This document shows, in pieces, positions 3,211 to 39,521 of a DNA stretch of 39,521 nt. The notes beneath the pieces are model-generated. The model had not been told where the DNA came from. It did not search any database and saw only the letters and a list, made by a program, of their open reading frames with translations. Position 1 is the stretch's first letter; every line of letters starts with the position of its first letter. This DNA is from a virus: the IMG/VR virus record IMGVR_UViG_3300046691_000045, positions 1 through 39,521 of that record, one strand, 5' to 3'. The position numbers and the translations under genes were made by a program.

Positions 3211-3250
3211 GTCTTCTCCCGTTTAATGGCCCGCCGTAGCGGGCGGGTTG

Positions 3251-3685
3251 TTACAGATCAGCCCAGCGCGTACCAGCGCGAATCTGGCGCACGAGACTTT
3301 TGCTGATGCCGTACTTGGCCGCTACATCCTTCGTGGCGCCGGTTTCTTCGTGTTTGATCTTAGTCGCTGCGGCGCGGTCCAGTTTCTGTGGGCCATGTGT
3401 GCCAAGGCGGTCGCGCTTGTCGCGCAGGTTGCGGGAACGCGTACCCCACGAAAGATGGGCTGCGTTGCAGCAACCATTGCTATCGCACGAATGCAGGACT
3501 TCGTCATTCGGGCATGGCGCTGGGCCGTATGCATCAGCGCAAATCAATCGTGCCACGCGCACGCACTTCCCATTTACCGACGCTTTGGCGTAGCCCTTTT
3601 CATTCGTACCACCCATCCACGGCCAACATTCGTTCGGGCCGCGCTTGTCGATCAATGTATGCAGATCAGATTGTTTCATGGACAT
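3251..3685 (-). CDS. HNH endonuclease with C-terminal helix-turn-helix
   Basis: The 144-residue protein has the phage HNH type with W-P-W and GYAKASVNGK near the N-terminus (21-40), the core VLHSCDSNGCCNAAHL (63-78; H65, N74, H77) and then GT....N..D....R. Residues 115-138 (TGATKDVAAKYGISKSLVRQI) form a helix-turn-helix, as in free-standing homing HNH enzymes that combine nicking with site binding. Alternative roles are a packaging or mobile endonuclease. It is the first gene of the leftward block, directly below a predicted promoter. The ribosome site is weak; a second ATG two codons in is possible. Confidence 0.88.
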   Translation of the reverse strand: MSMKQSDLHTLIDKRGPNECWPWMGGTNEKGYAKASVNGKCVRVARLICADAYGPAPCPNDEVLHSCDSNGCCNAAHLSWGTRSRNLRDKRDRLGTHGPQKLDRAAATKIKHEETGATKDVAAKYGISKSLVRQIRAGTRWADL

Positions 3686-3711
3686 TGCGTGTTGCGTTGT
3701 CGATGGAAGTA

Positions 3712-3740
3712 ACTTTACTACCTAGAACTAGGATACGCAA
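3712..3740 (-). promoter_or_regulatory. Predicted leftward sigma70-type promoter for the early-left operon
   Basis: On the minus strand the -35 element TTGCGT (3735-3740) and -10 element TAAAGT (3712-3717) are separated by 17 bases. It lies about 30 bp upstream of the HNH start and its spacer is filled by the inverted repeat at 3721-3732. The -35 match is poor, so activation or weak basal use is likely. Prediction by eye only. Confidence 0.45.
3721..3732. promoter_or_regulatory. Candidate operator CCTAGAACTAGG in the divergent control region
   Basis: A perfect five-base inverted repeat with a two-base centre (CCTAG-AA-CTAGG) lies exactly in the spacer of the predicted leftward promoter and about 42 bp upstream of the rightward extended -10. 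Its position suggests a repressor site, perhaps for the small DNA-binding protein encoded from 3814. Inference from placement. Confidence 0.4.
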
Positions 3741-3773
3741 GTAAAATCTTTCCACGTTAGATGACTACCGATG

Positions 3774-3782
3774 TGCTATAGT
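3774..3782 (+). promoter_or_regulatory. Predicted rightward extended -10 promoter
   Basis: TGCTATAGT gives an extended -10 (TG-N-TATAGT) about 32 bp before the GTG start of the 3814 gene. No convincing -35 element is seen at the usual distance, which is tolerated for extended -10 promoters. It would drive the first rightward gene and possibly the replication genes. Confidence 0.45.
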
Positions 3783-3813
3783 CGCACCAGTAACATTTCA
3801 CACAGGAGAGAAC

Positions 3814-4014
3814 GTGGACCGACAACAAGAGACGCAGGATATCCGCCAGTGGCTGGAGTCCATGAAGGGAAATTGGGACTGGATCTGCAAGAAGACTGAA
3901 CTGTCTAAAAAGACACTTACGCTGATCGTCAACAGCCCAACCCACTTGGCGCAGCCATCGACCATCAAGGCGTTGAAGTCGGCGCGTAAGTCATGGGAGA
4001 TGAAAAAGAAGTGA
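3814..4014 (+). CDS. Small putative DNA-binding regulator (Cro-like position), 66 aa
   Basis: The gene begins with GTG, five bases after AGGAG. The 66-residue product is basic and helical; residues 21-40 (WDWICKKTELSKKTLTLIVN) fit a helix-turn-helix and the C-terminus is lysine-rich. It is the first rightward gene and faces the HNH operon across a control region with an inverted repeat, the usual position of a Cro- or Cox-like regulator. No CI-type repressor partner is found. The regulatory role is inferred from position and motif. Confidence 0.7.
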   Translation: MDRQQETQDIRQWLESMKGNWDWICKKTELSKKTLTLIVNSPTHLAQPSTIKALKSARKSWEMKKK

Positions 4015-4026
4015 TGTCTGCGCAGC

Positions 4027-4049
4027 GTTTACGCATGTCAACAGTAAAC
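4027..4049. promoter_or_regulatory. Inverted repeat GTTTAC-N11-GTAAAC, possible operator
   Basis: A perfect six-base inverted repeat with an 11-base centre lies just after the regulator gene and about 70 bp before the structured RNA region. Its size fits a dimeric regulator site. I see no good promoter at the expected distance, so its function is uncertain. Confidence 0.35.
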
Positions 4050-4117
4050 CAAAGGACTGTTGCAAAAAGTTTCATGTGCAGAATTTAGGGTTTCCATAGT
4101 TCACTTCTTGTCAGAAA

Positions 4118-4300
4118 ACACCTACACTGGGATCTAGCATCGGTTGCATATCTGTAACTATCGATGCCAGCCCCGTGTAGGTGTGGAAGCCGAAACGGGT
4201 ATAAACGAGAGTGCTTGAGTAGGGGCTTAGGAGTAACCGCCAACACGGCACTCCTAGTCTCGGGGAGCTTCCACTAGCTCCTGAGTCCCGCCTCAAGCGC
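4118..4300 (+). ncRNA. Strongly structured non-coding RNA or leader with competing helices
   Basis: The 308 bases between the regulator gene and the next start hold no credible gene but many long complementary segments. A 67-nt hairpin (4118-4184) stacks ACACCTACAC/GTGTAGGTGT, GGG/CCC, GCATCG/CGATGC and GTTGCA/TGTAAC around a TATC loop. Downstream, GTGGAAGC (4183-4190) pairs with GCTTCCAC (4267-4274). A second helix of 21 pairs (4211-4233 with 4278-4300, one 2x2 internal loop) interlocks with it in pseudoknot order. Competing hairpins are TAGGAGT/ACTCCTA (4228-4234/4250-4256) and GGAGCT/AGCTCCTA-type pairing (4264-4269/4276-4281). Such mutually exclusive pairing suggests a regulatory leader, antisense RNA (compare phage C4/CI RNAs) or an origin element. 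No Rfam family is assigned. Strand is assumed from the downstream genes. Confidence 0.65.
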
Positions 4301-4322
4301 CTGGGTCAACGAAAGGTGCAGC

Positions 4323-4499
4323 ATGTCCATCAAAGAAGCCTCGCCTGCCAGCGAGCAATCTGCCACAAGCGCCAACTCCGGCGTATCCACCGACAACAGC
4401 GATCCGCTGACGTCTGCCATTTCCACCCGTTACGAGCACGTAATCTGCCAAGCAATTTTGGCGGAGGAATTCGCTCGGATTTTTGCTGCTGTCGAGTAG
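4323..4499 (+). CDS. 58-residue Ser/Thr-rich phage protein
   Basis: A 58-residue frame begins at ATG 4323 with AAAGG six bases upstream and ends six bases before the initiator gene. The first 35 residues are rich in Ser, Ala and Thr (SEQSATSANSGVSTDNS) and probably disordered; the last 25 form an amphipathic helix. No family is recognised. It is the first gene after the structured RNA and may be its regulatory target; that is inference. Confidence 0.65.
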   Translation: MSIKEASPASEQSATSANSGVSTDNSDPLTSAISTRYEHVICQAILAEEFARIFAAVE

Positions 4500-4504
4500 T
4501 CGAT

Positions 4505-5260
4505 ATGGACTGGTTCCGCATGTACGGCGAAATGATGGACGACCCGAAGATAGGGACCCTCAGCGACTCTGCATTCCGTACCTGGGTTGAGCTGCTGTGC
4601 TGTGCCTGCAAGGCTGAGGACGAGGGCAACACCCAGTTGACCGAAGAAACTTTGAATTGGGCATTGCGACGTAACGTTACAGAGCCGTTTCAGCAACTGT
4701 TTCAGCGCGGTCTTGTAACGGTCAATGATGCAAAAGAGATTGTCATCGCTAAGTGGTCTGATCGTCAGAAGAAGAGCGATTCCAGTGCACCGAGAGTGCG
4801 GAGGTGCAGGGAGAAAGCCAAGCTGGGCAACACATCAGAGCCATGTAACGTTACAGAAACAGATGTGAAACGTTACGGTAACGCTCTAGAGAAGAGTAGA
4901 GAAGAGAAGAAGAGAGAAGAAAAGAAAGAAGAAAAGAGTAGTGCTCGCGCTACGCGCTTGCCTGCTGACTGGGAACCCGATGCGGGGCAAATTGCTTTCT
5001 GCCAGACGGAGCGACCAGACTTAGTGCCTTTCGACGTTGGGTGCAGATTCCGTGACTACTGGATCGGTAAGGCGGGGAAGGATGGCGCAAAGCTGGATTG
5101 GTCGGCTACATGGCGAAATTGGGTACGCAATGAGCGGCAGGGACCGAATCGAGTTGTTGGGCAAGTCCTGCCGATGAACAAGCAGGAGGCGCTGGAGGCC
5201 CGTAACCGACAGATCGCATTGCAGGTTTCCGAAGACTTTATGAGGGAGGCAGGAGCATGA
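4505..5260 (+). CDS. Replication initiator-like protein (lambda O-type position)
   Basis: The 251-residue product starts at ATG 4505 (MDWFRMYGEMMDDPKIGTL), the usual opening of phage replication proteins with an N-terminal winged-helix domain (about 1-90). A lysine/glutamate-rich linker (129-145) follows. The C-terminal domain (150-215) carries the W-x-P and F-DYW...LDWSATWRNWVRN pattern seen in primosomal DnaT/phage O-like proteins. The upstream open frame is not used: it lacks a ribosome site and overlaps the 58-residue gene. The partner gene follows with an ATGA overlap. Origin binding and helicase recruitment are inferred. Confidence 0.78.
   Translation: MDWFRMYGEMMDDPKIGTLSDSAFRTWVELLCCACKAEDEGNTQLTEETLNWALRRNVTEPFQQLFQRGLVTVNDAKEIVIAKWSDRQKKSDSSAPRVRRCREKAKLGNTSEPCNVTETDVKRYGNALEKSREEKKREEKKEEKSSARATRLPADWEPDAGQIAFCQTERPDLVPFDVGCRFRDYWIGKAGKDGAKLDWSATWRNWVRNERQGPNRVVGQVLPMNKQEALEARNRQIALQVSEDFMREAGA
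4671..4943. other. Candidate replication origin inside the initiator gene (iterons plus purine tract)
   Basis: GTAACGTTACAGA occurs at 4671-4683 and 4845-4857, each containing the perfect palindrome GTAACGTTAC; a third related block at 4869-4883 holds AACGTTAC and GTTAC-G-GTAAC. Directly after comes a purine run, 4888-4938, with only one pyrimidine (T4897). Lambda-type origins have the same plan: iterons followed by an A-rich asymmetric tract in the middle of the O gene. Function is inferred from this resemblance. Confidence 0.5.
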
Positions 5261-5943
5261 ACCAGAACGAATTCCCGAAATTCCAGACGTTGCTGGGCGA
5301 CGTGTATGCCTTCTACCGTCAGGATTTTTCCCAGTTCGCGGCCAAGGTCTGGTGGTCGGCCATGACGCCTTTTGATTTCGCTGCTGTGTCTGAGGCGTTC
5401 AGCAAGCACTGTGTGAACCCGGACAACGGGCAGTTCATGCCGAAGCCTGCCGACATCGTGAAGATGCTCCAAGGCTCCACGCAGGATTCCGCGTTGGTAG
5501 CCTGGACGAAGGTGGACAAGGCTGTGCGGTCAGTTGGGACTTACGCCTCAGTCGCGTTTGACGACCCGATCATCCACCGAGTTATCATCGAAATGGGCGG
5601 CTGGGTGTCGCTAGGGACGAAGACTGAGGACGAATGGCCGTTCATTCGCAATGAGTTCGTAAATCGGTATCGCGGCTACAAGATGCGCAATGAGACGCCT
5701 GAGTATCCCCCGGTCATGATCGGGATTGCGGAGTCGCAGAACGCCAAAAATGGTTTCCAGATTGCCCCGCCGCTGCTCTTGGGCCAGCCTGAAAAAGCGC
5801 AGATGGTGATGCTTAAGGGATCGAATACTCCTGTTCTGCAAGTGACGATGGCAAAGCAGTACGCGAGTGCTCCGGCGTTATCGCACAGCCAGAAGGACTA
5901 CGGCGACGAGATAACGGATGCCATCAATGAGGATGAGCAATGA
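5257..5943 (+). CDS. Probable replication partner / helicase-loader-like protein
   Basis: The 228-residue protein overlaps the initiator stop by four bases (ATGA). It opens MNQNEFPKFQTLLGDVYAFYRQDFSQFAAKVWW-like and has a PKPADIVKMLQG motif (about 62-73), then a middle domain with WPFIRNEFVNRYR. This layout matches a family of phage proteins that always follow initiator-like genes (DUF6475-type, recalled not searched). By analogy with lambda O-P it may deliver the host helicase. No Walker motif is present, so it is not a DnaC-type ATPase. Confidence 0.6.
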   Translation: MNQNEFPKFQTLLGDVYAFYRQDFSQFAAKVWWSAMTPFDFAAVSEAFSKHCVNPDNGQFMPKPADIVKMLQGSTQDSALVAWTKVDKAVRSVGTYASVAFDDPIIHRVIIEMGGWVSLGTKTEDEWPFIRNEFVNRYRGYKMRNETPEYPPVMIGIAESQNAKNGFQIAPPLLLGQPEKAQMVMLKGSNTPVLQVTMAKQYASAPALSHSQKDYGDEITDAINEDEQ

Positions 5944-8163: not shown

Positions 8164-8354
8164 TGATGATCCCTGCGGTAAGCGCAGAAGTGGCACACCA
8201 TTTTGGAAAGCTCAAAGCGCTTCGTGAGGCGCCGAAGATCGTCAATATGTGTGAGTTTCAAGGGCAAATCTTCGTAGCAACTGAGCGTGGTGTATTTCGC
8301 CTGTTAGATGGCATGCTGGTCCCGATTCCATTCGCTACGCCGGAGGATATGTGA
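8163..8354 (+). CDS. Hypothetical phage protein, 63 aa
   Basis: Three candidate starts (GTG 8160, ATG 8163, ATG 8166) follow a GGAGG site; ATG 8163 has the best spacing. The 63-residue protein contains CEFQGQIFVATERGVFRLLDG, a small beta-strand pattern found in many phage hypothetical proteins. It overlaps the gene on each side by one base. Confidence 0.55.
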   Translation: MMIPAVSAEVAHHFGKLKALREAPKIVNMCEFQGQIFVATERGVFRLLDGMLVPIPFATPEDM

Positions 8355-33172: not shown

Positions 33173-33693
33173 TGCCAATCACCGACGAATCCAAGCTACC
33201 AGGCGGTCTTAACATGGCCGCTTTCCTGGACATGCTTGCGTGGTCGGAGGGCACCAGCACAAACCCCGCAACGGCATGCGATGGTTACGATGTCATCGTT
33301 ACGGGGCGAGATGGCCGCGCGGAAATCTTCAGCGACTTCTCTGCGCACCCGTTTGCAAACGGCAGGTCATCCAAGGTCATCAACAGTCGCGGGCTGACAT
33401 CGAATGCGAGCGGTCGGTATCAGTTCATGCTGCGCGACTACAAGCATTACAAGACGTTACTGAAGTTGCCGGACTTCGGCCCTTTGTCGCAAGATAAATG
33501 GGCCGTTCAACTCATCAAGGAACGTGGAGCTATTCCTGATATCGGGGTCGGGAATCTCCGCAAGGCTATCACCAGATGTTCGAACATCTGGGCCAGTCTT
33601 CCGGGTGCCGGGTATGGACAGCCTGAGCACAAATTCGAAGCCCTAAGGGCTCAATACCTGCTGAATGGCGGGGTCGACAATGGGGTTTCATAA
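33172..33693 (+). CDS. Endolysin, lambda R-type lytic transglycosylase
   Basis: The 173-residue protein has the glycoside hydrolase 104 pattern of lambda R: FLDMLAWSEGT (catalytic E26), GYDVIVTGRDGR, FSDFSAHPF and ASGRYQF (about 80-86). It lacks a signal peptide, so release depends on the holin. It cleaves peptidoglycan glycan strands at lysis. The gene overlaps the preceding stop by one base and leads the lysis cassette. Confidence 0.92.
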   Translation: MPITDESKLPGGLNMAAFLDMLAWSEGTSTNPATACDGYDVIVTGRDGRAEIFSDFSAHPFANGRSSKVINSRGLTSNASGRYQFMLRDYKHYKTLLKLPDFGPLSQDKWAVQLIKERGAIPDIGVGNLRKAITRCSNIWASLPGAGYGQPEHKFEALRAQYLLNGGVDNGVS

Positions 33694-35068: not shown

Positions 35069-35470
35069 CTACCCCTCCCGCCCCAGCGCCGACCGATCCA
35101 TGGCGGCGTCGATTGCTGCGTCCATTTCATCGCCGCGCCGGCTATGCACGACCCAATTTCGTGACTCGTCGCGCGTGGCAAAGATGAACTGGATGCCATC
35201 GGTTATCAGCGGAACACTCTTGCCTATCGGACGAGCGCGGAGGTATCGATACCTCGCCGCATCCTGCGCCTCGCCCGATTGCTCCGGGGTGGGGCGGCGG
35301 TTCCAGGCGGCGATGGCCGCTTCCATTGTTTCGCCTAGCCGCTCTGCTTTGCAGATGGAACAGCCAGCGTGATACGGCGCGACACGCTGGCCGCCACTTC
35401 CAGTCTCATCTGGCACTACGAACAAGTCGCCATTGCATCCGAATGGGCAGCACTTCAGTTCATTGCTCAT
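35069..35470 (-). CDS. Lar-like (restriction alleviation type) zinc protein, 133 aa
   Basis: ATG 35470 overlaps the previous stop, with GGAGG seven bases upstream. Residues 1-60 match the Lar pattern: LKCCPFGCNGDLFVV, a second cysteine pair (AGCSICKAE) and TMEAAIAAWNRR. Lar-type proteins modulate type I restriction in Rac prophage; most phage relatives are untested. The C-terminal half (AARYRYLRARPIG...) is a separate phage domain common in hypothetical proteins. Confidence 0.78.
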   Translation of the reverse strand: MSNELKCCPFGCNGDLFVVPDETGSGGQRVAPYHAGCSICKAERLGETMEAAIAAWNRRPTPEQSGEAQDAARYRYLRARPIGKSVPLITDGIQFIFATRDESRNWVVHSRRGDEMDAAIDAAMDRSALGREG

Positions 35471-36282
35471 CACACCCCCTCCGGCTTGGCTGGCGCTGTG
35501 GCGAGCAACGCATCAGCGAGTTGCTGTCCCGCGTACATCATGCGCATGGCCTTGTACTTGTCGTGCGAGCACTTGCACCCGCCGTTCGTGTGCATTCCCG
35601 TTGGGCGCTTGATAACGCAGCCACCGTCGGTGCAGCCGCCCGTTCCGTCGCGCAGACGCACATACTCATCGAGCCGCTTCTGCACTTCAGGCGTCTGCGC
35701 GGTGGCGAGCGTGGCGCGGGTCATACCAGATCGAACGCCAGCATTCCATATGTCCTGATCCAAGGGAGGATGCCCATTTACTGCGATCCAGCCGCCACGG
35801 AAGCCGGCAAGCGTATTGCTCACTGCTGGCAGTGGCGCCCGCTCATCCGCCACAGGCTCTTTCGATGCGGGGGCGGGGTGGGTGTAGAGCACGCGACGGT
35901 TGCTAGGCAGTCGCTCCGCGTAATAATCCGGCGTTACGTCATGCCACGAGCAAGTGTCAACATCCAAGACCTGATGCACAGCCCCGCCCGCGTTGGTTGC
36001 CGTGTATAGCCGCGCGCGAGCCTTATGCATGCGCTCGGCAAATTCAGGATCGGCCATTTCGCGCAGATAGACGGTCAGGCTATGAGTCAGCAGGCCATCG
36101 CGCTCTGACATGAACGGCTTGAGCAATACCAAGTGATCCGGGTGGACCCCGCCCGCGTTGCTGGCGCGGCTCTCGAGGGCGCGAGCGTATTTGATCAACG
36201 TTTGGCATTCGCGGAAGGTCAAGCCCATTGCACTGCCAATGAGCACGCGCTCCAGCGCATCCAAATCCAGTTTCTCGCTCAT
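35470..36282 (-). CDS. Mosaic phage protein, 270 aa
   Basis: The protein looks assembled from several phage modules: an N-terminal helix (LDLDALERVLIGSAMGLTFREC), HPDHLVLLKPFM, a VLYTHPAPASKEP connector, a RGGWIAVNGHPPLDQ segment and a Cys-rich C-terminal part (GGCTDGGC..., GGCKCSHDKY). No enzyme family is recognised. It overlaps both neighbours. The THPAPA-type connector recurs in modified form in the 38288 gene. Confidence 0.6.
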   Translation of the reverse strand: MSEKLDLDALERVLIGSAMGLTFRECQTLIKYARALESRASNAGGVHPDHLVLLKPFMSERDGLLTHSLTVYLREMADPEFAERMHKARARLYTATNAGGAVHQVLDVDTCSWHDVTPDYYAERLPSNRRVLYTHPAPASKEPVADERAPLPAVSNTLAGFRGGWIAVNGHPPLDQDIWNAGVRSGMTRATLATAQTPEVQKRLDEYVRLRDGTGGCTDGGCVIKRPTGMHTNGGCKCSHDKYKAMRMMYAGQQLADALLATAPAKPEGV

Positions 36283-37194: not shown

Positions 37195-37411
37195 TCTTCG
37201 AGCCTTCAGTGGCGGTGCTGGCGCGCTCCCAATGAATGGCCCAGCCATGCCGATCATTTGCAACTACGGCTAGCTGGTTCTCATGAGCAACCTTCCAAGC
37301 GAACCTGCGAGCTTCTCGCCAATAGCTGAACCGGAAGATTGAGGCGTGATCGATGAAATGAGTTTCTACCTCGGTGTCATCACGGATTCGGATGAAGTCA
37401 ACGGCTGGCAT
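37187..37411 (-). CDS. Hypothetical phage protein, 74 aa
   Basis: GGAG six bases before ATG 37411 sets the start. The 74-residue protein (MPAVDFIRIRDDTEVETHFI..., SYWREARRFAWKVAHENQLA) looks like a small alpha/beta fold and ends EGSKNG. It overlaps the upstream gene by 14 bases. No family recognised. Confidence 0.6.
   Translation of the reverse strand: MPAVDFIRIRDDTEVETHFIDHASIFRFSYWREARRFAWKVAHENQLAVVANDRHGWAIHWERASTATEGSKNG
37191..37208. repeat. 18-bp gene-boundary repeat, copy 2
   Basis: Exact copy of 36560-36577, spanning the last codons of the 74-residue gene and the first ATG of the methyltransferase-like gene. Confidence 0.7.
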
Positions 37412-38291
37412 TGCTATCTCCTTGCGGCTGCTCGCTTGCACGGCAGTTCCATGCGGCGATTACCGCATTCCCGGCAATCCCTGGCGAACTGCTGCTGTAT
37501 TGCAGGGAAACGACTGCGTCGCAGTGATCGCACGCGATGCGGCCCACCCAACCAGCGTGCTCAATCTGCTCTACCTCTGGAGATGAAGCCATGCCTCCGC
37601 AGAATGGGCACGGACTAAGGTCGCCTAACACAGCGGTAGAAGTCGTGCCAGACTGTGCTGCCATTGCTTCGCATGTAGTCGTCTTGTCGCAGTACTTGCA
37701 ATTCCAAACATCGCTATTCGTGCAGGCGGCGGCATTCGACGGTTGCGGCTGCTCGCGGGACAGGGCGGCGTCGAGCCGCGTCCAGCACTCCCAAGCGAGC
37801 TCAATTTGCCAGCAGGAATACTCGCCACGTGGTAGTCGATGCAGGTATTCATCGACGATGGATTCATCGAGGCGCTCACGCATGTATGCCTCGAACGCCG
37901 TCCGCCCGTCCTGCTGCGCCGCTGACTGCCACTGATCGCACCCCGGCGTGTAATGTAGCCCCAATGCCAACACCGTCCGCATTGCAGCGTCTCTTTGCAG
38001 TTCGCGCGCATCCCGCTTATCCTCGCCACCGGCCTGCACCTGCTGGGCGAGCATGGCTTCACCAGCCGGCGTCATTGACCACCTTGCGGGACTGCGCTGG
38101 GTTCGGGCGAGCAGACCGATGGTAGTGAGTGCATCGAACCAGTCTCGTCCGATATCGCAACCCTCATCGTCGCCAGCGCATTCCTCGAAGCGAGCCAGCT
38201 TCTCGCGCACCAGTCGCATAGCGCCAGTAAGCGGCATGTATGGCGCCTCGCGCTCATCCTGCTGCGCCATAACTTCATTGGACTTGTTCAT
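37398..38291 (-). CDS. Two-domain phage protein with C-terminal Lar-like zinc domain, 297 aa
   Basis: Residues 1-200 are a mosaic of helical phage modules: ALTTIGLLARTQRSPARWSMTPAG looks like a winged-helix, and YMRERLDESIVDEYLHR...W follows. Residues 225-290 match Lar: CPFCGGMA, IACDHCDA and NAVIAAWNCR. This is the second Lar-type domain in the island. The start has AGGTGAAGGT upstream and overlaps the previous stop. An anti-restriction role is inferred from the domain only. Confidence 0.7.
   Translation of the reverse strand: MNKSNEVMAQQDEREAPYMPLTGAMRLVREKLARFEECAGDDEGCDIGRDWFDALTTIGLLARTQRSPARWSMTPAGEAMLAQQVQAGGEDKRDARELQRDAAMRTVLALGLHYTPGCDQWQSAAQQDGRTAFEAYMRERLDESIVDEYLHRLPRGEYSCWQIELAWECWTRLDAALSREQPQPSNAAACTNSDVWNCKYCDKTTTCEAMAAQSGTTSTAVLGDLSPCPFCGGMASSPEVEQIEHAGWVGRIACDHCDAVVSLQYSSSSPGIAGNAVIAAWNCRASEQPQGDSNASR
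38252..38268. repeat. 17-bp module-boundary repeat, copy 1
   Basis: GCTCATCCTGCTGCGCC also occurs at 38449-38465; the related GTCCTGCTGCGCC is at 37909. On the minus strand all encode AQQD(E/G). They lie at domain joints of the mosaic genes. Confidence 0.6.
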
Positions 38292-39342: not shown

Positions 39343-39521
39343 GCAACAGGATTCATCATCCACGCAGCAGCCGGGTCTACGTGCGGGCGCCACTCTTTGA
39401 GCCATCGTTCATGCTTGCGCTCGACCTCGGCGCGTGACAGATATTCGGGATCGTTCTTTGCGATCTTGGCCGGCTCTTCGGTCATGGGGTTGTTCGGCGT
39501 ATCTGGTTCATTACCGACTCG
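39339..39521 (-). CDS. Winged-helix-like protein split by the contig ends (3' part)
   Basis: This is the C-terminal part of the 130-residue protein described at 1-337: bases 39395-39521 duplicate 1-127, and 39339-39394 add the last residues (...HVDPAAAWMMNPVA) and the stop. Its 5' end lies beyond the window edge only because of the artificial cut. Confidence 0.7.
   Translation of the reverse strand, partial: RVGNEPDTPNNPMTEEPAKIAKNDPEYLSRAEVERKHERWLKEWRPHVDPAAAWMMNPVA
39395..39521. repeat. Terminal direct repeat (circular closure), right copy
   Basis: Identical to bases 1-127; see the left copy. Confidence 0.93.

Follow-up and report, generated by a model that had tools for sequence, protein, structure and literature searches.

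A Conserved, Pseudoknotted RNA and Possible Translational Leader Ahead of the Replication Genes of a Phage

Introduction

What is the role of the stretch that separates a small upstream gene from the replication genes in the viral genome IMGVR_UViG_3300046691_000045? The IMG/VR record, analyzed here at its full length of 39,521 nt (the window), carries at positions 4118–4300 a segment able to fold into a hairpin followed by interlocking helices. The original prediction, drawn from the letters alone, described there a structured RNA and read it as a switching leader or antisense RNA controlling the downstream genes, possibly akin to the C4 and CI immunity RNAs of phages, or as an origin structure.

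The helices are present where they were placed, and we have hardly any doubt about the reality of the structure or about its selection. Conservation reaches further than first noted, from about bp 4026 to a start codon at bp 4323. Our proposal, made from sequence comparison, is that the RNA is a cis-acting leader that may serve as a translational gate for a 58-codon open reading frame and for the gene downstream of it. We give this proposal about an even chance of being right. The evidence for the fold, the proposed gate, and the competing explanations are considered below.

A Selected RNA Structure

The region contains the two lowest folding z-scores of the window. Among 394 overlapping 200-nt pieces (mean −0.10, sd 1.14), the lowest were 4001–4200 (−5.74) and 4101–4300 (−4.65). 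The segment 4100–4330 folds with −96.1 kcal/mol (z −5.09), and 0 of 200 shuffled sequences reached so low a value. The third lowest z-score of the window (−3.94) lies elsewhere, in the endolysin gene region at 33401–33600.

Three relatives were found in viral contigs and are called L001, L116, and L122; with the window they make up the four members. The long helix formed by 4211–4233 and 4278–4300 has 21 pairs in 23 nt per strand. Its 5′ strand consists of a lower part of 9 bp, GTGCTTGAG, and an upper part of 12 bp, GGGGCTTAGGAG, called A. In the 3′ strand, D (CTCCTGAGTCCC) pairs with A, and CTCAAGCGC completes the lower part. In alignment A5, where L001 is identical to the window and is counted once, 21 pairs in three distinct sequences give 63 cells. 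All 21 pairs are kept in all three sequences, with six double changes, four one-sided changes, and no breaks. None of 500 shuffles reached the pairing or double-change counts, and 6 of 500 reached the pair-type count. When one strand is slid by 1–3 columns, only 32–54% of the cells remain paired, with no double changes. Consensus folding with alifold, done on three rows with L001 dropped, gives z −9.2 for alignment A5 and −9.7 for alignment A4, with 0 of 200 column shuffles as low in each case. The comparison thus shows selection for pairing in the long helix, on the plus strand. Folded alone, L001 and L122 form the same long helix as the window. L116 forms the upper long helix and three pairs of its foot, the remaining foot being replaced by the anti-Shine–Dalgarno helix described below.

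The second helix interlocks with the first in pseudoknot order. Its 5′ strand P, GTGGAAGC, at 4183–4190, pairs with GCTTCCAC at 4267–4274, which is part of a segment called C inside the loop of the long helix. Of the 8 bp originally described, seven pairs are kept in all four members, and one of them is changed from G-C to C-G on both sides in L116 (registers set by hand). The CTTCCA of the 3′ strand is kept in 4/4 members, though the surrounding MAFFT columns shift. In the sequences compared, the pseudoknot pairing survives with a single swap, and both it and the long helix stay directly ahead of the short frame.

The contention that the pairing is maintained is borne out by the compensatory changes in the long helix, by the one in the pseudoknot helix, and by the polarity of the wobble pairs, which also bears on the strand. 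G-U pairs occupy 8 of the 63 long-helix cells on the plus strand, and A-C occupies none; read on the other strand, those eight would become A-C mismatches. In addition, L116 folds with z −2.50 on the plus strand and 0.19, no better than chance, on the minus strand. From these two asymmetries, the plus-strand RNA is likely the selected form. The opposite strand does fold well in three of the four members (z −4.38 in the window), which taken alone speaks against a plus-strand RNA. Such folding on both strands is expected of near-palindromes, however, and so is uninformative about the strand. These results also bear on the idea that the element is a DNA or single-strand replication structure, that is, an origin hairpin or a primosome assembly site. 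The element adjoins the replication genes, and the opposite-strand fold of the window would suit such a role. The wobble and folding asymmetries suggest that selection acts on the plus-strand RNA, and the element persists where the replication genes differ. We consider a replication structure very unlikely, and the origin alternative in the original prediction is accordingly disfavored.

Additional elements complete the unit. A first stacked hairpin of 67 nt extends from 4118 to 4184 (plus strand), and its basal CCTACA/TGTAGG is kept in three of four members. Upstream are two boxes, both on the plus strand and both invariant in 4/4 members. Box 1, CGTTTACGCATGTCAA (4026–4041, within an element spanning 4026–4049), might form a small hairpin, judged by eye, between GTTTAC at 4027–4032 and GTAAAC at 4044–4049 in the window; TACGC/GCGTA would be its equivalent in the other three members. 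Box 2, TTTAGGGTTTCCATAG (4084–4099), includes GGTTTCCAT at 4089–4097, which can pair with GTGGAAGCC at 4183–4191 in competition with the pseudoknot. The window, L001, and L122 have all pairs of this alternative, and L116 has lost the last one.

The Short Frame and a Proposed Translational Gate

A 58-codon frame (4323–4499, plus strand) follows, and the conserved RNA ends at its ribosome site. The frame is preceded by a Shine–Dalgarno-like AAAGGTG at 4312–4318 and is open in all four members, with an in-frame 9-nt gap in L122. An anti-Shine–Dalgarno helix pairs GCGCCT (4297–4302) with AGGTGC (4314–4319) and shares bases 4297–4300 with the lower long helix. All six of its pairs are present in 4/4 members, with two one-sided changes and no double changes.

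Amino-acid-changing codon differences exceed silent ones (8:3 in L001, 7:2 in L116, and 18:6 in L122), so that little constraint is visible on much of the peptide, the N-terminal part in particular. The last ~22 codons behave differently at the DNA level, with identity to the window of 68/69 in L116 and 65/69 in L122; for L001, which diverges at the very end, the figure is 58/69. This near-invariant end (4431–4499 in the window, 4109–4177 in L116, and 4699–4767 on the minus strand of L122; 94–99% identical) contains a GGAGG. It could be an RNA site, a DNA site, or a recombination joint. By another explanation, the whole element would be a recombination joint or a palindrome-rich stretch and would lack any function in itself. 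Between mosaic neighbors, both boxes and the short-frame end are near-invariant, as recombination joints may be, but compensatory changes in three distinct sequences are not expected unless pairing is selected, and this is the least probable of the explanations we have considered.

In the window, L116, and L122, the next start lies 5 nt past the stop of the short frame, and only a short GAG, seen by eye, precedes that start as a possible ribosome site; in L001, the stop overlaps the next start as GTGA. This arrangement suggests translational coupling of the short frame to the following gene.

We propose the following sequence of events. A sense-strand structured leader RNA (about 4026–4322) would be carried within an early rightward transcript, on the assumption that transcription runs through the region. 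The leader would set the translation of the 58-codon frame at 4323, and stop–start coupling would pass that control to the following gene, which in the window is the replication gene. Several segments have a choice of partner. P (4183–4190) may find its partner behind it, in box 2, or ahead of it, in C within the long-helix loop. A and D may join each other in the long helix, or each may form a hairpin of its own, A with B and D with C. Four bases of the long-helix foot are also part of the anti-Shine–Dalgarno strand. Because P, A, D, and the foot all have alternative partners, competing folds could alter the access of ribosomes. The folds would compete while the early transcript is being synthesized, and their balance would determine access to the short frame. 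We infer the switch, its effect on translation, and the coupling; the trigger may lie in when the RNA is synthesized, in a protein, or in an antisense RNA. That the RNA is a leader located before the replication genes, as originally stated, is upheld by the compensatory pairing and the plus-strand wobble polarity.

Competing Folds

Two hairpins exclude the upper long helix. Hairpin A:B (TAGGAGT/ACTCCTA, 4228–4256, plus strand) uses A. Hairpin C:D (GGAGC/GCTCC, 4264–4281, plus strand) excludes the pseudoknot as well. The partner predicted for A (TAGGAG) is either D, in the long helix, or B, and three are predicted for C, namely D, B, and the 4183 strand. In the window, the best fold is predicted at −103.7 kcal/mol and the two-hairpin fold at −102.6; the corresponding values are −96.4 and −93.9 for L116 and −92.4 and −89.7 for L122. 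Since the two-hairpin fold is 1.1, 2.5, and 2.7 kcal/mol above the best fold, respectively, and the competing hairpins thus lie within about 1–3 kcal/mol of it, switching is plausible. Of the original claim of a switching RNA, the competing hairpins stand and the switching itself is no more than plausible.

A number of observations weigh against the gate. Some are energetic. In the window, L116, and L122 alike, forming P:C in the absence of the long helix costs about 15 kcal/mol. When box 2:P forms and the long helix is present, the cost in these three sequences is 7.1, 4.1, and 1.0 kcal/mol, respectively. The combination of the upper long helix with the anti-Shine–Dalgarno helix is the best fold only in L116, lying 5.8 kcal/mol above the best fold in the window and 5.7 in L122. 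Predicted access to the Shine–Dalgarno sequence also fails to respond uniformly. Enforcing the lower helix in L116 moves it from 0.14 to 0.32, and blocking the 5′ strand of the long helix moves it from 0.65 to 0.35 in L122 and from 0.19 to 0.28 in the window. A single rule for ribosome-site access across the members therefore failed, as the shifts go in opposite ways.

Other adverse points come from the comparison, which rests on only three distinct sequences. No pair of the 21-pair helix is broken, but uncompensated breaks of the kind that would speak against the helices do occur elsewhere. L116 (C-C) and L122 (C-A) lack the eighth pair of the pseudoknot helix. The A:B hairpin has one compensatory change and a broken end pair in L122, and the basal stem of the first hairpin has one double change, with two pairs broken in L001 and one in L116. 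In L001, the gene that follows the short frame is a further frame, of 61 codons, and the replication gene comes only after it. Finally, a scan of 3600–4600 for promoter-like sites on either strand found none; the same scan finds none for the early operon.

Relatives and the Mosaic Control Region

L001, found through the replication protein, is 96% identical to the window, and its contig recurs as L017, L032, and L117. L116 (= L123) was found through the 58-codon frame and L122 (= L124) through the two-box DNA pattern. Over 4183–4300, identity to the window is 118/118 for L001, 69/118 for L116, and 80/116 for L122, and L116 and L122 are 58–70% identical to the window in the folded part. A 103-codon gene to the left is 85–95% identical between the window and its relatives, and a 66-codon upstream gene is 50–55% identical in nucleotides between the window and the other members. 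The window and L001 share the RNA, but their upstream genes are 53% identical and the starts of their replication genes 48%. The members are, by these sequence measures, close phages with a mosaic control region.

An RNA that is kept while its neighbors change, at this position, makes a factor-independent antitermination RNA like the put element of phage HK022 the main rival. Such an RNA would fold at RNA polymerase and promote read-through of terminators ahead, whatever the downstream gene, and its presence in phages with different neighboring genes is what one expects of a general element. The fold starts about 300 nt past the start codon of the upstream gene; according to PMC9378689, putR lies about 270 nt from its promoter start. 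There is also a terminator-like site at 4460–4475, inside the short frame. As an intrinsic terminator we rejected it, as it is weak and within the chance level: two terminator-like sites were found against a mean of 1.0 in shuffles. Moreover, PMC9378689 describes put as about 70 nt with two stem-loops and as present in two copies, putL and putR, one per early operon. The fold discussed here is about 200 nt with a pseudoknot, and a second copy in the window was not found with a model of the 3′ half or a profile of the 5′ half. The fold also reaches the Shine–Dalgarno sequence and includes an anti-Shine–Dalgarno strand, neither of which antitermination needs. We regard a put-like role as unlikely, though deserving of attention.

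The pattern of divergence raises a different thought, namely a trans-acting RNA: an antisense regulator or an immunity RNA like C4 or P4 CI, processed from the leader and silencing related phages or another transcript. The core (58–70%) and the upstream gene (50–55%) are less conserved than the flanks, that is, the 103-codon left gene and the end of the short frame, as would be the case around a specificity region. Compensated divergence can, however, be explained by drift under structural constraint alone. The genome offers an argument as well. The window has a 127-nt terminal direct repeat (1–127 = 39395–39521), and on this ground the genome is probably complete, circularly mapped and cut open from the circle. 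Searches of it for PF00589 (tyrosine integrase), PF00717 (S24 repressor), and PF00239 (resolvase) gave no match. In a genome that looks complete and in which none of these is recognized, control by something other than a protein is conceivable. A missing integrase fits a virulent phage equally, though, and the protein encoded at 8308–8676 matches a PHROG named transcriptional repressor, which keeps protein repression possible.

A trans-acting RNA would also be expected to have a target. A BLAST search of 4020–4325 against the other strand of the window gave, besides the first hairpin with itself, only matches of 10–16 nt, which is the chance level. In Rfam 15, no family matched the window at the gathering threshold. 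At E up to 10, segment 4000–4420 gave four rows, all from other families, all on the minus strand and below the gathering threshold, with no C4 among them. Kinship with C4, suggested in the original prediction, is thus not supported, given the lack of a match to Rfam C4 (RF01695), a downstream gene for replication rather than an antirepressor, and the lack of a trans target above the chance level. We doubt that the RNA acts in trans, and hold this to be rather unlikely. As readings of the crossed helices, HDV-like and other ribozymes were also considered and set aside, with no Rfam match and only 3 nt between the two 3′ strands.

Searched with the region, neither the phage nor the plasmid collection gave a DNA match, and BLASTN and nhmmer against 100 loci gave, beyond short matches, only L001, L017, and L032, which are one contig. 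A covariance model run on 70 of 130 loci recovered only L116, L122, their opposite strands, and one row with E 4.8 (L055). L125–L127, from 3 of 398 genomes in the family of the L103 genome (Chitinasiproducens palmae), are DNA matches of 20–32 nt and were rejected as chance. L131, the one covariance-model match among 399 genomes of the order of the L103 genome, scored 23.7 bits; it was rejected, as a 220-codon frame overlaps it and 9 of its 21 pairs are marked non-standard. The 16-mer matches L010–L031, except L017, have local alignments of 16–35 nt and are chance, and L118–L121, L128–L130, and L132–L136 were likewise rejected after reading. No match was found for the short frame in phages, for window 10000–34000 in phages at high identity, for the 103-codon left gene in phages or in the 399 genomes, or in the 12 host-type genomes searched.

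Genome Context

The leader as we propose it would lie between a small regulator-like gene and the replication genes. The upstream gene (3814–4014, plus strand, 66 codons) looks helix-turn-helix-like by eye only and has no PHROG or Pfam match. Downstream of the short frame, the replication gene (4505–5260, plus strand) matches phrog_3992 and phrog_3926, which are primosomal or replication initiation PHROGs, and is followed by a gene at 5257–5943 that matches phrog_10105. A phrog_10105 homologue occurs in 15 genome loci, of which 12 bear titles of betaproteobacteria. Minus-strand frames of 50–61 codons overlap the structured region; no gene-like sign was noticed in them, and no dedicated test was made. 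Elsewhere in the window, two separate genes, at 35069–35473 and at 37398–38291 (minus strand), have weak matches to a Lar-like restriction alleviation family (phrog_599).

Folding of the segments upstream of phrog_10105 homologues, at 78 of 115 loci, revealed some strong hairpins of other sequence; the scan made no test for the presence of the element described here. Three hairpins may be mentioned. At about 3135–3245 in L098 (L115 is identical there), a long hairpin upstream of a phrog_10105 homologue has an AAAGGAG resembling a ribosome site (3222–3228) wholly in its stem, and is possibly an analogous gate. At about 1275–1378 in L070, a long imperfect hairpin buries an AAAGGA (1366–1371) immediately before an ATG. 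At about 920–1005 in L057, upstream of a phrog_10105 homologue, a perfect outer stem of 14 bp is followed by a T run, making a strong terminator-like element.

Comparison with Known Systems

The element is a covariation-supported RNA with no Rfam 15 match at a phage control point, and its three sequence versions of one fold provide material for studying the gating of phage replication by RNA. It appears to be a new RNA family, although its general kind is known. A bolder view is that it represents an undescribed class of phage control RNA, as follows: a portable, pseudoknotted leader cassette with a coupled mini-frame, swapped between phages, that gates any downstream replication gene and possibly acts in trans as an immunity or timing device, in a phage without a recognized integrase or S24-type repressor. 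We think this view improbable. Searches of the open PMC literature listed no title on such an RNA before a phage replication gene. Weinberg 2010 (PMC2864571) names the C4 and STAXI motifs.

Three known systems offer comparisons. The put RNAs bind the zinc-binding domain of the RNA polymerase β′ subunit and prevent termination. The element resembles put in being a structured RNA of an early rightward operon, similarly far from the operon's start; it differs in being longer, pseudoknotted, single-copy as searched, and in ending at a ribosome-binding site.

In phages P1 and P7, ant is coupled to icd, and C4 acts on target stretches, complementary to it, near the ribosome site of the short gene. 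According to PMC8198154, c4, icd, and ant form one operon, and icd participates in the control of ant. The order of elements is alike: a structured RNA, a short gene, and then the regulated gene. Here, by contrast, the short frame is followed by a replication gene and not by one for an antirepressor, and the only complementarity near the ribosome site of the short frame is the 6-bp anti-Shine–Dalgarno helix.

The leaders of plasmid rep genes, such as ColIb-P9 repZ and those of IncB, IncL/M, and R1, combine a coupled leader peptide with a pseudoknot. In ColIb-P9, the pseudoknot lies just before the rep start and is controlled by an antisense RNA, whereas the pseudoknot described here precedes the short frame, and no promoter-like site for an antisense RNA was seen in 3600–4600, in a scan that finds none for the early operon either. 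The two are alike in a short frame followed by a replication gene, in apparent coupling between these, and in upstream competing folds that include a pseudoknot. If the leader is indeed a gate for replication, it would extend to phages a strategy best known from plasmids.
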